DNA of 64,000 nt from Halosimplex salinum (lineage in GTDB: Archaea > Halobacteriota > Halobacteria > Halobacteriales > Haloarculaceae). Made by a program: the position numbers and the translations under genes. This document shows, in pieces, positions 3,819-47,377 of this stretch (the first letter of the stretch is position 1; every line of letters begins with the position of its first letter). Below the pieces are notes generated by a model, which was not told the origin of the DNA, made no database searches, and worked only from the letters and a program-made list of their open reading frames with translations. Location of the stretch: positions 1 through 64,000 of the forward strand of contig NZ_QWGG01000009.1 in assembly GCF_003730195.1 (NCBI RefSeq), written 5' to 3'.

Positions 3819-3938
3819 ATGAACGTCGTGGAGATCGTCGAAGAGATGATCGAGGGGTACCTGTCGGGCGGCGCGGAGGAGGCGCTATCGGAGGGCGCCG
3901 AGGAGACAGTGGAAGGGGCGACCGGGAAAGACCTGTAG
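3819..3938 (+). CDS. very small acidic protein (39 residues), uncertain
   Basis: ATG at 3819 begins MNVVEIVEEMIEGYLSGGAE, a short acidic, amphipathic sequence rich in Glu and Gly. AAAAATATTATG around 3782-3793 is a good TATA-like box about 26 bases upstream, which would give an almost leaderless mRNA. No domain is recognised. The support is only the acidic composition and the well-placed promoter; the frame is short enough to occur by chance. Confidence 0.35.
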   Translation: MNVVEIVEEMIEGYLSGGAEEALSEGAEETVEGATGKDL

Positions 3939-41937: not shown

Positions 41938-44667
41938 ATGACCGAGGCGACGGGTATCGTCGGGGAGTTCCTCGCGCTCAAGGAGGGGACCGACGCCGAC
42001 ATTCTGGCGATGCAGTGCGGCGACTTCTACGAGTTCTTCGCCGAGGACGCCGAGATCGTCGCCGACGAACTCGATCTCAAAGTCTCGCAGAAGGGGTCCC
42101 ACGGCTCCTCGTACCCGATGGCGGGCGTGCCGCTCGACGACCTGACGCCGTATCTCTCCGCGCTCGTCGAGCGCGGCTATCGCGTGGCCGTCGCGGACCA
42201 GTACGAGACTGACGACGGCCACGCCCGCGAGATCTCGCGAGTCGTCACGCCGGGAACCCACCTCGAGACCACCGACGACGACGCGCAGTACCTCGCCGCG
42301 GTGGTCCGGGAAGGCGGCGGCACGGACGGTGAGCGCTTCGACGACAGCGACGCCACCTACGGTATCGCGGTGGCGGACGTGACGACGGGGCAGTTCCTCG
42401 TCACCGAGCAGTCGGGGGCGGACGCGACCGCCGCGGCGCTCACGGAACTGTACAAGTTCGACCCCGCGGAGGTGTTGCCGGGACCGGACATCCGCTCGGA
42501 CGACGCGTTCCTCGACGAGGTACGCGAGCGCACCGACGCGTCGCTCTCCCTGCACACGACGGAGGCGTTCGCACCGGGACGCGCGCGCCACCGAGTGCGC
42601 GAGCAGTTCGGCGACGAGACCCTGGAGAGCGTCGGGATCGCGGACGACGACGCCGCCGTTCGAGCGGCCGGCGCCGTGATATCGTACGTCGACGAGACCG
42701 GCGCGGGCGTGCTGGCGTCGATGACGCGCCTGCAGTCGTTCGACGAGTCGGCGTACGTCGACCTCGACGCGACGACCCAGCGCAACCTCGAACTCACGGA
42801 GACGATGCAGGGCGACCGGGACGGCTCGCTCTTCTCGACGGTCGACCACACCGTCACGAGCGCCGGCGGGCGACTCCTCCGGGAGTGGCTCCAGCGCCCG
42901 CGCCGCTCGCGCGGCGAACTGGTCCGGCGCCAGTCCGCCGTGGCGGCACTCGCCGAGGCCGCGATGGCCCGCGACCAGTTGCGCGAGACGCTCGGCGATG
43001 CCTACGACCTCGAACGACTGGCCTCGAAGGCCGCCTCGGGGAGCGCCGACGCCCGCGATCTGCGGGCGGTACAGGAGACGCTCGCGCTCCTCCCCGTGGT
43101 CGGGGAGATCGTCGCGGAGACCGACCGACTGGCCGACTCGCCGCTCGCGGAGACGCTGGAGCGGCCGGACCGCGCGGCGACCGCCGAACTGGCCGCCGAC
43201 CTCGACGAGGCGCTCGTCGAAGACCCACCGGGGACGGTCACCCAGGGCGGACTGATCCGGCAGGGGTTCGACGCGGACCTCGACGAGATAATCGGTGCGC
43301 ACGAGTCGGCGCTGGCGTGGATCGAGAACCTCCCAGAGCGGGAGAAGCGGAAGACGGGAATCACCCACCTCTCGGTCGACCGGAACAAGACCGACGGCTA
43401 CTACATCCAGGTCGGCAACAGCGAGACGGACGAGGTGCCCGAGCGCTACGACCAGATCAAGACGCTCAAGAACTCCGAGCGGTACACGATCCCGGAGTTA
43501 GAGGAGAAAGAACGGGAGATCCTCCGTCTGGAGGAGCGCCGTCACGAGATGGAACGCGAGATCTTCGAGCGGTTGCGAGATCGGGTGGCCGCTCGGGCCG
43601 CGGTGCTGCAGGAGACCGGGCGGGCGCTCGCCGAGTGCGACGCGCTCGCGAGTCTGGCCGTCCACGCCGTCCGCAACGACTGGACCCGCCCCGAACTGAC
43701 CGACGGGCGCGAGCTGGCCGTCGAACAGGGTCGTCACCCGGTCGTCGAGCAGACGACGCAGTTCGTGCCGAACGACCTGCGGATGGACGAGGACCGGCAG
43801 TTCCTGATCGTGACCGGGCCGAACATGAGCGGGAAGTCGACGTACATGCGGCAGGCCGCACTCATCACGCTGCTCGCGCAGGTCGGGAGCTTCGTCCCGG
43901 CGCGGTCGGCGCGCGTGGGGCTCGTCGACGGCATCTACACCCGCGTCGGCGCCCTCGACGAACTCGCGCAGGGCCGCTCTACGTTCATGGTCGAGATGCA
44001 GGAGCTCTCCAACATCCTCCACTCCGCGACGGCGGACTCGCTGGTGATTCTGGACGAGGTGGGGCGCGGGACCGCGACGTACGACGGCATCTCTATCGCC
44101 TGGGCCGCGACGGAGTACATCGCCAACCGGATCCAGGCGAAGACGCTGTTCGCGACCCACTATCACGAACTCACGGCGCTCGGCGAGGAGCTCCCGGCGG
44201 TGGAGAACGTCCACGTCGCCGCGGACGAGTCCGACGGAGAGGTGACCTTCCTGCGGACGGTCCGTGACGGGCCGACGAATCGGTCCTACGGGGTTCACGT
44301 CGCAGACCTCGCCGGCGTCCCCGACCCGGTCGTCGACCGCTCTCGGGACGTCCTCGACAGACTCCGCGAGGAGAAAGCGATCGAGGTACAGGGGAGCGAG
44401 GGAGCCGACGGCGGGGGCACCGAACAGGTCGTCTTCGACCTCGGGTCGGGCGAACTGGTCTCCGAAGAGACGAGCGGGTCTCAGCGACAGGTCGCGACCG
44501 ACGGGAGTCAGACCGAAGCGCCCGCGAGTGAATCGAGCGGTGGGTCGCTCGACCCGGAGACCGAAGCCGTCCTCGACGAACTCGGCGACGTCGACGTCAA
44601 CGAAACGCCCCCGGTAGAACTGATGGCGAAGGTACAGCAGTGGCAGGAGCAGTTAGACGAGGAGTGA
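41938..44667 (+). CDS. mutS: DNA mismatch repair protein MutS
   Basis: 909 residues, slightly longer than bacterial MutS. The N-terminal mismatch-recognition motif is GDFYEFFAEDA (Phe-x-Glu, about 23-33). The core domains include QRNLELTETMQGDRDGSLFSTVDHTVTS and RLLREWLQRP, where MutS clamps meet. The ATPase at the C-terminus has the P-loop TGPNMSGKSTYMRQ (about 625-638), Walker B LVILDEVGRGTATYDG (about 700), and TLFATHYHELTAL (signature/H loop). It binds mismatches and loops and recruits a repair partner. The final ~70 residues are low-complexity, Glu/Ser-rich and probably halophile-specific. A MutL gene is not in the window. CCTTTTACC about 32 bases before the ATG may be its TATA. Confidence 0.97.
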   Translation: MTEATGIVGEFLALKEGTDADILAMQCGDFYEFFAEDAEIVADELDLKVSQKGSHGSSYPMAGVPLDDLTPYLSALVERGYRVAVADQYETDDGHAREISRVVTPGTHLETTDDDAQYLAAVVREGGGTDGERFDDSDATYGIAVADVTTGQFLVTEQSGADATAAALTELYKFDPAEVLPGPDIRSDDAFLDEVRERTDASLSLHTTEAFAPGRARHRVREQFGDETLESVGIADDDAAVRAAGAVISYVDETGAGVLASMTRLQSFDESAYVDLDATTQRNLELTETMQGDRDGSLFSTVDHTVTSAGGRLLREWLQRPRRSRGELVRRQSAVAALAEAAMARDQLRETLGDAYDLERLASKAASGSADARDLRAVQETLALLPVVGEIVAETDRLADSPLAETLERPDRAATAELAADLDEALVEDPPGTVTQGGLIRQGFDADLDEIIGAHESALAWIENLPEREKRKTGITHLSVDRNKTDGYYIQVGNSETDEVPERYDQIKTLKNSERYTIPELEEKEREILRLEERRHEMEREIFERLRDRVAARAAVLQETGRALAECDALASLAVHAVRNDWTRPELTDGRELAVEQGRHPVVEQTTQFVPNDLRMDEDRQFLIVTGPNMSGKSTYMRQAALITLLAQVGSFVPARSARVGLVDGIYTRVGALDELAQGRSTFMVEMQELSNILHSATADSLVILDEVGRGTATYDGISIAWAATEYIANRIQAKTLFATHYHELTALGEELPAVENVHVAADESDGEVTFLRTVRDGPTNRSYGVHVADLAGVPDPVVDRSRDVLDRLREEKAIEVQGSEGADGGGTEQVVFDLGSGELVSEETSGSQRQVATDGSQTEAPASESSGGSLDPETEAVLDELGDVDVNETPPVELMAKVQQWQEQLDEE

Positions 44668-44681
44668 GTCGCTGACTCCAG

Positions 44682-45932
44682 TTACTGGTCGACGTCGACC
44701 TGTGCGGGGTCGGGGTCCATCCTGAACACGACGCTGGGCTCCCAGAGCAGGCGGTGTTCCTTGTAGGTCCCCTTCCCCATCCCGCCGTGTTCCTGGTTCG
44801 ACTCCGTGACTTCGAGGAAGGCGAGTTCGCTGAGCAGGCCGCGGATCGAGTCCGTCGTCAGGTCGTCGGCTCCCTCCGCCGCGCAGACCTTCTCGTACAC
44901 GTCGTAGATGACCGTCGTCCGGAACCAGTCGCGCTCCTCGTCCGTGTTCGCGGTCAGGTTGGCGAGCGCGTAGAGGACGTACTTGCTGTGGGGCGGGAGC
45001 CCGGCGATCAGCTCCTTCAGCCGCTCGACCTCGGCCTGTTCCTGGGCGCGTTCGAGATGGGCTTCGGTTACCTCGCCGAGACCGTTGTTCTTCGCGTAGT
45101 CGCCCGCGTGGCGGAGGAGGCGGATGGCCTTGCGAGCGTCGCCGTGGCGCTGGGCCGCGAGCGCGGCCGTCTTGGGGATGACGCCGCTGTGGAGGACGCC
45201 GTCGCGGAACGCGTCACGCCGGTTCTCGAGTATCTGGCGGAGCTGTTCCCCGTCGTAAGGGTCGAAGATGAACTCGTTGTGGCCGAGGCTGCTCTTGACC
45301 CGCTCGGTCATCTGCTCCCGGAAGTTCACCTTGTTCGAGATGGAGATGATGCCGATGGGGACGTCCACCTTGCCGGCTTCGCGGGCGCGGGAGAGCAACA
45401 TGAGGACGTTGTCGTCGCCCAGTCGGTCGACCTCGTCGAGCGTGATGAGCGCGGCGTCGTACTGCCGGTCGAGGACCTCCCAGAGCCGGTTGTAGTACTC
45501 GTTGGTCGAGATCCCTCGGGTCGGTATCTGGACGCCCGACCCGGGGACGTTGATGCCGTCGGCGATGGTCTGGATGGTGTCGGCTTCCCCCTTCGCCTGC
45601 GCGCAGTCGACGGTCACCGTCGCCAGCCGGTTGTCGCGTCGCTCCGCCTCGCCGCGCGCCCGTTCCATGACGTGGTTCGCGACGAGCGACTTCCCCGACC
45701 CCGTCTTCCCGTAGAGGATCACCGAGTTCGGCGGCGACCCGGTGACGGCCGGACCGACCTCGTTGGCGAGGTCGCGGATGTGTTCGTCGCGGCCGACGAT
45801 GCGCGTCTCGTCCGGCACGTGGTCGATGTTGAGTAACTCCCGATTCGCGAATATCGTGTCGTCACCGCCCTCGTCGACGGACTGAAACAGCTCGTCGCCC
45901 TCCGTCGCCGACCCGTCGCTACGCTCCTGCAT
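44682..45932 (-). CDS. orc1: Orc1/Cdc6 replication initiator
   Basis: 416 residues from MQERSDGSATEGDELFQ. It contains an AAA+ ATPase with Walker A SVILYGKTGSGKSLV (about 65-79), Walker B ALITLDEVDRLGDD (about 150) and sensor regions (ISISNKVNF, GDARKAIRLLRHAGDYA near 270). A C-terminal winged helix domain follows (RLKELIAGLPPHSKYVLYALA, about 300). Archaeal Orc1/Cdc6 binds repeats at oriC, opens DNA and loads MCM. The gene reads away from the repeat-rich gene-free region on its upstream side. That is the typical arrangement of a haloarchaeal origin with its cognate initiator. The frame goes 13 codons further up, but ATG 45932 is better placed. It is probably autoregulated by the repeats. Confidence 0.95.
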   Translation of the reverse strand: MQERSDGSATEGDELFQSVDEGGDDTIFANRELLNIDHVPDETRIVGRDEHIRDLANEVGPAVTGSPPNSVILYGKTGSGKSLVANHVMERARGEAERRDNRLATVTVDCAQAKGEADTIQTIADGINVPGSGVQIPTRGISTNEYYNRLWEVLDRQYDAALITLDEVDRLGDDNVLMLLSRAREAGKVDVPIGIISISNKVNFREQMTERVKSSLGHNEFIFDPYDGEQLRQILENRRDAFRDGVLHSGVIPKTAALAAQRHGDARKAIRLLRHAGDYAKNNGLGEVTEAHLERAQEQAEVERLKELIAGLPPHSKYVLYALANLTANTDEERDWFRTTVIYDVYEKVCAAEGADDLTTDSIRGLLSELAFLEVTESNQEHGGMGKGTYKEHRLLWEPSVVFRMDPDPAQVDVDQ

Positions 45933-46747
45933 TGCTCGTCTGTTCACAGGGCCGCTGAAAAACGTTTCCACTACACTCCGAGTTAGTTACTGTGTCTCAC
46001 CTGTCAGAGACCCACCGAGCGGCGCTTTGGATGTAACTCCGAACCCAGTCAGACCCCACTGCATTCCGAGTTAGCGGTGCGCGGCGGGACGCCGACCGGG
46101 TGTCGAAGTGACACACCCGATTCCGAGTTAGTTCACGGACGACCCGTCGAACCCGAGACGGACCTGTCCGGGACGCCACTCCACAGCGCTGATCGGGGTC
46201 CCACAGTGGGGTCGATACCTCCGTGACGGACGACAGGACACCCGATTCCGAGTTAGTTTCGGTGGCCGTGAACGGGGACGGCAGTCAGCAAGTCGGCGGA
46301 CACCTCGTTCCGAGTTAGTCGCGACTCTCTCGCCCACACACACCGGATTCCGAGTTAGTCCGTCGAGATCGGTCCGTCACCGAACGACGGAGACGCCCCC
46401 GCGCGGTCCCTCGGTTTCGTTCGTCGTCCGACAGTTGTCCTGCTGCCGTTCACTCCGTTGGTCTGCTTCCGCGTCCGTCGGCTTCCGCGCTCGCTTGCTT
46501 CCCCGCTCGTCCGCTTCCCGCTTCTCGTTTCTCTTTCTCTTCTTCTTCACTTCTGTTTCTAGTACCTAGTACTAGAGAGAACACACCGGATTCCGAGTTA
46601 GTTCACCGGCCACGAACGCACTCGCCCCCCGCCAACCCCCCACTAACTCGGAATCCGGTGTGTGTCCCCGGACGGAGTTCGGCCGGCGTTCCCAGCGACT
46701 GAGAGACCGGTCCCCTCCTTAACCCCGGTCGAAACAGACACTCGGGC
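45933..46747. other. probable replication origin with eight ORB-like repeats
   Basis: A gene-free 815-bp region holds one repeat eight times: at 45976-45987 (CTCCGAGTTAGT), 46063-46074 (GC...TTAGC form), 46120-46132, 46245-46257, 46307-46319 (GTTCC form), 46347-46359 and 46590-46602, all in the same orientation, and inverted at 46642-46654. The core is ATTCCGAGTTAGT. The three longest copies (about 46338, 46580 and 46642) also share CACACCGG before the core. A pyrimidine-rich tract (about 46437-46558) and an inverted repeat CTAGTAC-CTA-GTACTAG (46559-46575) lie inside, and AT-rich melting could begin there. The nearby orc1 and an opposing single inverted copy are what an archaeal origin would show. 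The direction of the copies may fix the unwinding direction. Confidence 0.8.
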
Positions 46748-47377
46748 ATGAGCGACGAGTCGTGTTCGCACTGGGAGCCGGAGAACTGTGAAGGGTCGAT
46801 CCACTGCCCGCCGCGGTGTCCGCGGTTCGTCGACCGAACGGGCGAGCCCTGGGTCGTCCGCCCGCCGACCGCCGAGGACCGGGAAGCGCTCGTCGACATG
46901 TACGACGACTTCGCGCTGGGGCAGCAGGCACAGGGGTTGCCGCCGCGGACACGCCCCCGAATCGAGGGATGGCTCGACGACGTCCTGACCGAGGGGTGTA
47001 ACTTCGTCGTCGCCGGCGACGACCGCCTGGTCGGCCACGCGCTGTACACACCGACCGACGAGGCCGAACCGGAGTTCGCGGTGTTCGTCCATCAGGACTA
47101 CCAGAGCCGCGGGATCGGGACGGAAGTGAGCAAACACGTCGTCGCCGCGGCGGCCGCCGGCGACCGCGAGGCCCTCACACTCGTCGTCGAACCGGACAAC
47201 CGCGCCGCTCGCCGACTGTACGACCGACTGGGGTTCGAGACCGTCGAGCAGTTGTCCTACGGCCAGGGGGGGATCCAGACCGGGATCGTTCGGATGCGTC
47301 GCGAGTTCGGCCCCGCTGCCGCGGCGGAGTTCCGCTGTCCGCCCGTCGTCCGAAATCGACCGAGCCCGGCGGACTGA
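46748..47377 (+). CDS. GNAT acetyltransferase with Cys-rich N-terminus
   Basis: 209 residues. The N-terminal 30 residues contain four Cys in CSHWEPENCEGSIHCPPRC, a pattern that could bind zinc. The GNAT domain follows (about 38-190): VRPPTAEDREALVDMYDDFA, the acetyl-CoA loop in VHQDYQSRGIGTEVSKHVVA (about 118-137) and VEPDNRAARRLYDRLGFETVEQLSYG (about 150-175). It begins 94 bases after the last origin repeat and reads away from the origin. The acceptor is unknown. Fusion of a Cys cluster to GNAT is a known haloarchaeal variant but its role is unproven. Confidence 0.85.
   Translation: MSDESCSHWEPENCEGSIHCPPRCPRFVDRTGEPWVVRPPTAEDREALVDMYDDFALGQQAQGLPPRTRPRIEGWLDDVLTEGCNFVVAGDDRLVGHALYTPTDEAEPEFAVFVHQDYQSRGIGTEVSKHVVAAAAAGDREALTLVVEPDNRAARRLYDRLGFETVEQLSYGQGGIQTGIVRMRREFGPAAAAEFRCPPVVRNRPSPAD

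Follow-up and report, generated by a model that had tools for sequence, protein, structure and literature searches.

A candidate Orc1/Cdc6-dependent replication origin with a divergent ORB in Halosimplex salinum

A box array beside an orc1/cdc6 gene

Is the repeat-rich stretch beside an orc1/cdc6 gene of Halosimplex salinum a replication origin, and is the adjacent gene its initiator? The stretch (815 bp) lies in a 64,000-nucleotide segment of contig NZ_QWGG01000009.1, the window analysed here, and had been described as a repeat-dense origin in an initial annotation made from the DNA letters. As described there, it contained no genes, extending from the orc start codon at 45932 (− strand) to the ATG at 46748 of the next gene. 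The identification of the neighbouring gene as Orc1/Cdc6 was upheld by matches to Pfam PF22703 and PF09079, to NCBIfam TIGR02928 and to solved structures, the closest being Aeropyrum and Sulfolobus Orc1/Cdc6 (PDB 2v1u and 2qby). The gene (44682..45932, − strand) encodes an initiator of 416 aa with an AAA+ domain, a Cdc6 lid and a C-terminal winged helix, and its ATG start is consistent with orthologues of 416 aa. The genome contained 12 Cdc6-lid matches, 11 of them above the cut-off, and the window Orc is one of 11–12 paralogues. The oriC1-type Orc is a separate gene (locus L066), 32% identical to the window Orc. No phage record matched the window Orc, and no viral contig encoded a relative of it. 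A motif match in one viral contig (L086) lay inside coding sequence and was dismissed as chance.

Both the boxes and the promoter lie upstream of orc. The search recovered eight copies of ATTCCGAGTTAGT with no more than one mismatch apiece, seven on the + strand and the most distal one inverted, in agreement with the count first given. The 13-base box was exact in five of the eight copies and one base off in the other three. Box 1 (45975..45987, +, one mismatch) lies some 43 bp away from the start codon of orc and abuts GAAACGTTTTT, which is situated approximately 25–30 bp upstream of the start codon, at what we take to be the BRE/TATA place of a leaderless haloarchaeal promoter. It is followed by box 2 (46063..46075, +, one mismatch), box 3 (46120..46132, +, exact core with an ACACCCG flank), box 4 (46245..46257, +, exact core), box 5 (46307..46319, +, one mismatch) and box 6 (46347..46359, +, exact core with a CACACACCGG flank). 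Beyond these were the previously noted pyrimidine-rich tract (about 46400..46560), the distal part of which is a candidate unwinding element, and the CTAGTAC inverted repeat (CTAGTACCTAGTACTAG) at 46559–46575. Box 7 (46590..46602, +, exact) and the sole inverted copy, box 8 (46642..46654, −, exact), form a convergent pair, 52 bp apart start-to-start and separated by a 39-nt spacer (46603..46641). The CACACCGG flank occurred in exactly three boxes (46347, 46590 and the inverted copy), again as reported. Between boxes 6 and 8 the GC content showed a modest dip, with a 40-bp minimum of 35% compared with 61% over the intergenic stretch.

Across the whole window the 11-base core had 10 matches, against 0.55 expected, and none of the shuffled sequences reached 10. 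With up to one mismatch, the 12-base core TTCCGAGTTAGT matched 14 times in the 5.07-Mb genome, and eight of these matches were in the 815-bp stretch, where 0.001 would be expected at the background rate (Poisson probability approximately 2e-29). Wide scattering of the repeat without relation to orc had been named as evidence that would speak against an origin; the genome search returned a single such cluster in 5.07 Mb. No boxes were found downstream of orc in the window.

ORB sequence and linkage to the Orc clade

The core had been said not to match the best-known haloarchaeal origin recognition box (ORB), which did not hold: from the CA/C string onwards, TTYCGAGT is common to the repeat and to the oriC1 ORB of the same genome. 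In the orientation of an ORB, the repeat can be recognised as a divergent ORB, with a CA/GT string at the position of the halophile "G-string" and a TTCCGAGT core that is close to TTTCGAGT of oriC1. The same grammar of a C/CA string, a short spacer and a core was observed in other origins of this genome. In string-first orientation, the ORBs read CCCCCACCCCTTTGTTTCGAGTGGAA at oriC1, ACACACACCACGTTTCCGGTGAAAC at the origin on contig C27 and ACACACACCGG-ATTCCGAGTTAGT in the window. The G-string position of the window ORB is filled by GGTGTGTGT, not by a G run; next to the inverted box, a clear run of G was present in some Halosimplex only, the window and H. aquaticum among them, and was not kept in other genera. 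No description of the box sequence was found in the accessible literature.

Among related loci, the core shifted stepwise with the Orc clade while ACACACC remained constant. The core was GTTTCGAGTTAAG at L049 (Orc 61% identical to the window Orc), ATTTTGAGTAAGG in the pNG100 group (56–57%), ACTCCGTGTTAAG at L060 (55%) and GTCCCAAGTTATA at L059 (51%). The region of the recognition helix and wing in the winged-helix domain was conserved inside the window Orc clade and different between clades. A stepwise change of the core with the Orc clade is expected for cognate pairs of initiator and box. Upstream of the orc paralogue at 3839 of another locus (L069, G000:C24), several near-identical 34-bp tandem repeats were observed that do not resemble the ORBs found at other origins.

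A search for the core next to orc homologues in other haloarchaea, which had been proposed as a check, showed that the array adjoins the orthologous orc in every relative in which the upstream region is present. Among 146 family genomes, with orthologues defined by about 74% identity or more, the exact core was present in 15 of the 16 genomes with an orthologous Orc and in 6 of the 130 without one (Fisher p = 8e-15). In the sixteenth genome the core was absent and the contig starts right at orc. In a class-wide sample of 391 genomes, none from outside the family Haloarculaceae contained the flanked motif. Exact single 13-mers in two genomes (G024 and G067) had no CACACC flank and were set aside as chance matches. 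The array was tabulated upstream of the orthologous orc at 17 loci, in Halosimplex, on Halocatena plasmids, on a Haloarcula marina plasmid and elsewhere. In the consensus of 129 box copies, CACACACCYGATTCCGAGTTAGT, the CACC string and the TTCCGAGTTAG core each contained positions that never or hardly ever varied.

Two loci with boxes of the window type stood apart. The first (L076, G028:C7:41150-41632) is an orphan cluster of four boxes, three direct and one inverted. No orc lay within 5 kb of it, and the closest Orc detected on that contig was approximately 58 kb away. The second (L079, G062:C1, 822000-836000) has three boxes near a distantly related Orc (31% identity), with a fragment of a second Orc also nearby.

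An origin unrelated to replication for the repeats, as transposon ends, a CRISPR-like array or chance, would fit their location in a gene-free stretch. Their irregular spacing, the strict tie to one Orc clade and the lack of other genomic copies leave this explanation with a negligible probability.

Layout of the array and the CTAG cluster

The order of elements outward from orc was conserved: boxes 1 and 2, a variable number of direct boxes, a low-GC or pyrimidine stretch, CTAG sites and the convergent pair. In nearly all orthologues box 1 lies approximately 43 bp and box 2 approximately 130 bp from the start codon, and in all genomes retaining both, boxes 1 and 2 are 86–88 bp apart. The convergent pair measured 52 bp start-to-start in 13 of the 17 loci, 51 and 53 bp in two, and approximately 100 bp in two Haloarcula loci. 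The length of the 39-nt spacer was constant between genera, whereas its sequence was not kept (mostly 13–46% identity). At the two Haloarcula loci the CTAG element is on the other side of the pair and an extra inverted box lies further out, beyond the CTAG element, so that opposed boxes still flank it. The seven-to-one orientation of the boxes had been called unusual, yet a similar pattern was found in other Orc clades, with ratios of 3–6:1 in relatives such as the pNG100 Orc. Most related Orc clades pair several direct boxes with a single distal inverted one, so this arrangement is typical of the group.

The position of box 1 beside the orc promoter, fixed across orthologues, would also suit an array that only binds Orc, autorepressing orc and storing the protein without initiating replication. 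Such a role has a precedent in the ORB-rich region by H. hispanica cdc6E, which titrates initiator and has no origin activity (PMC3936714), and boxes occur downstream of orc as well in the Haloarcula relatives L029 and L083. We consider this reading very doubtful: an operator at the promoter leaves the convergent pair, the low-GC element and the CTAG cluster, 600–700 bp away, unexplained, and the genome has no second array of the window ORB that could serve as the real origin.

The segment at 46559–46575 was the sole dense CTAG cluster in the window, with CTAG at 46559, 46566 and 46572, at distances of 31, 24 and 18 bp to the box 7 core; the frequency of CTAG is low (0.24 per kb). Across loci, CTAG sites were found at positions −32, −25, −18 and often −13 relative to the convergent pair. 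In a 1.65-Mb sample of the genome G092, which consists of a single contig, a cluster of at least three CTAG within 25 bp (or of four within 60 bp) occurred only at this origin, and one of at least five within 120 bp only inside oriC1, between the oriC1 ORBs. These dense clusters are at G092:C1:135072 (this origin) and 1978130 (oriC1). Blow et al. (PMC4752239) described clusters of CTAG upstream of orc1/cdc6 genes and proposed that CTAG methylation acts at archaeal origins, and Ouellette et al. (PMC5867850) found CTAG enrichment at just one H. volcanii origin. What is new here is the fixed distance of the CTAG sites from a convergent ORB pair. A PF01555 enzyme is encoded and is a candidate for the methyltransferase acting on CTAG; its NCBIfam and structure matches pointed to no one specificity.

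Predicted origin function and relation to known origins

The stretch is very probably an Orc1/Cdc6-dependent replication origin, or replicator, with the adjacent orc as its dedicated initiator. A supporting observation is that a clade-specific ORB repeat is nearly confined to the flank of the orthologous orc. Dependence of a haloarchaeal origin specifically on the co-located cdc6 has been demonstrated experimentally in H. hispanica (PMC3936714). A point against is that predicted ORBs were found near only two-thirds of the orc genes in 15 genomes (PMC3528665). The earlier suggestion of a less common initiator-origin pair was sustained in one part, as the linkage to orc and the architecture shared across genera indicate an origin-type array with its own initiator, and failed in the other, as the core does show a relation to known ORBs.

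Inference from Haloarcula (PMC3936714) and Saccharolobus (PMC12141716) suggests how binding, loading, titration and control by methylation could work at this origin. Orc would bind the boxes with its winged helix on the core and its AAA+ domain on the CA/GT string, the strings pointing outward on both sides. Opposed boxes around the low-GC element would load MCM and melt the element for bidirectional replication. Box 1, which abuts the orc promoter, would likely mediate autorepression of orc, and the surplus direct boxes would titrate Orc. The CTAG cluster may be the target of the widespread haloarchaeal m4C methyltransferase and modulate re-initiation. A more specific version, which we judge quite unlikely, would unite the convergent pair, with its 39-nt spacer and about five helical turns start-to-start, and the phased CTAG sites in one initiation-and-licensing module. 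There, m4C methylation or hemimethylation of CTAG would gate Orc and MCM as an archaeal counterpart of Dam/SeqA, and the outlying boxes would only titrate Orc.

The haloarchaeal orc/cdc6-adjacent origins of Wu et al. (PMC3528665) likewise combine an Orc/Cdc6 gene with adjoining ORBs in both orientations, with ORBs specific to Orc families and movement between plasmid and chromosome. Three features by which that study recognised origins were found at the window locus: an adjoining Orc/Cdc6 gene of >300 aa with AAA+ and winged-helix domains, repeated ORBs with an inverted copy, and an ORB sequence tied to the Orc clade. That study also looks for a G-string at the end of the ORB and for an AT-rich element, available for unwinding, between opposed ORBs; at these places the window has the GGTGTGTGT string and the 35% GC minimum between boxes 6 and 8. 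The window ORB differs from those origins in its core ATTCCGAGTTAGT with a CA/GT string, and except for the orthologues found here, the window Orc was <80% identical to every named Orc compared, 80% being the origin-family cut-off in that study. The oriC1 of the same genome (L066) shares the C-string and TTYCGAGT core, the outward strings and a CTAG cluster between inverted ORBs. In contrast to the window array, oriC1 lacks both a direct array and a close convergent pair, its few ORBs being placed around a wide element, and the Orc identity of 32% places the window locus outside the oriC1 family.

The plasmid origins of pHTUR04, pNMAG01 and contig C27, assigned to the oriCb type by inference from the description in that paper, share the ACACACC string. 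Their Orcs are 50–52% identical to the window Orc, below the 80% cut-off, and their core is different (GTTTCCGGTGAAA), so the window locus also falls outside this family. No plasmid Orc with 60–80% identity to the window Orc was found. The origin region of Haloarcula marismortui pNG100 resembles the window in its direct boxes, single inverted box and CTAG sites, and the only Orc match on pNG100 is the 56–57% identical one; it differs in the core (ATTTTGAGTAAGG), the ratio of three direct boxes to one inverted and the pair spacing of 73 bp. Origins of the H. hispanica oriC2 type have an ORB cluster downstream of orc as well, unlike the window. In the Saccharolobus oriC1 (PMC12141716), inverted ORBs similarly surround an unwinding element, inside which there is an additional short motif; there the motif is ucm, bound by UBP, whereas in the window it is CTAG. 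Most likely, the array represents a further haloarchaeal orc/cdc6-linked origin with a newly found box sequence.

The surroundings of the orc-ORB unit were variable. When the Halosimplex clade that includes the window was compared with the other Halosimplex, nucleotide similarity was limited to orc and boxes 1–2 (window about 44678–46077), and the flanks differed between the two Halosimplex groups, each of which has its own location for the unit. In the window the unit lies between mutS and a GNAT acetyltransferase gene (41938–47377), and in G092 these two genes lie approximately 110 bp apart without orc (G092:C1:2893894-2897385). A conserved linkage to mutS was considered and rejected, given that mutS is adjacent in the window strain, 1.7 kb off in H. 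aquaticum and distant in other single-contig Halosimplex. The Haloarcula locus L077 (G009:C14:137000-148000) was 93–97% identical to the H. sebkhae locus L029 on both flanks, whereas the orc and origin type differed: the L077 orc is 47% identical to the window orc, and two boxes of the old type persist downstream of the new orc. The difference between these loci is best read as an in-place swap of initiator and origin. Together with the differing surroundings, it suggests that the orc-ORB unit behaves as an exchangeable cassette, as previously proposed for other haloarchaeal origins (PMC3528665, PMC4441112). Low-GC islands (42–62%) were observed near this origin at G092:C1:125000-133000 and 160000-168000; CTAG counts were elevated in the 20-kb samples that contain them, and this would be expected if plasmid DNA had been captured there.

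The origin could also be a dormant one or a relic, a plasmid replicator captured by the chromosome, silent while oriC1 works and kept mainly with orc. Orthologous loci are indeed carried by plasmids or megaplasmids in Halocatena marina (317 kb) and Haloarcula marina (187 kb), the cassette occupies different chromosomal sites within Halosimplex, and some orc-linked origins of H. hispanica and H. mediterranei are dormant (PMC4441112, PMC4595724). In a 40% sample of G092, oriC1 and this origin agreed in the sign of the GC skew, which was outstanding at neither. However, the box number, box phasing, spacer length and CTAG phasing were kept in all seven Halosimplex examined while the surrounding bases diverged, which argues for continuing selection; dormancy is the less probable case. 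We predict instead that the origin is probably active in growing wild-type cells. In four Halosimplex chromosomes its distance from oriC1 was 28, 42, 44 and 50% of the chromosome.

The window locus extends the set of haloarchaeal origins by an initiator-box pair whose motif is sharply defined. The graded series of cores, TTCCGAGTTAG, TTTCGAGTTAA, TTTTGAGTAAG, TCCCAAGTTAT and others, that the window locus forms with relatives at 50–60% Orc identity could reveal a recognition code of the winged helix. Dense CTAG clusters may offer a simple finder for haloarchaeal origins, and the conserved geometry of the box pair, with its adjoining CTAG cluster, makes a compact substrate on which the proposal of Blow et al. 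(PMC4752239) can be tested.
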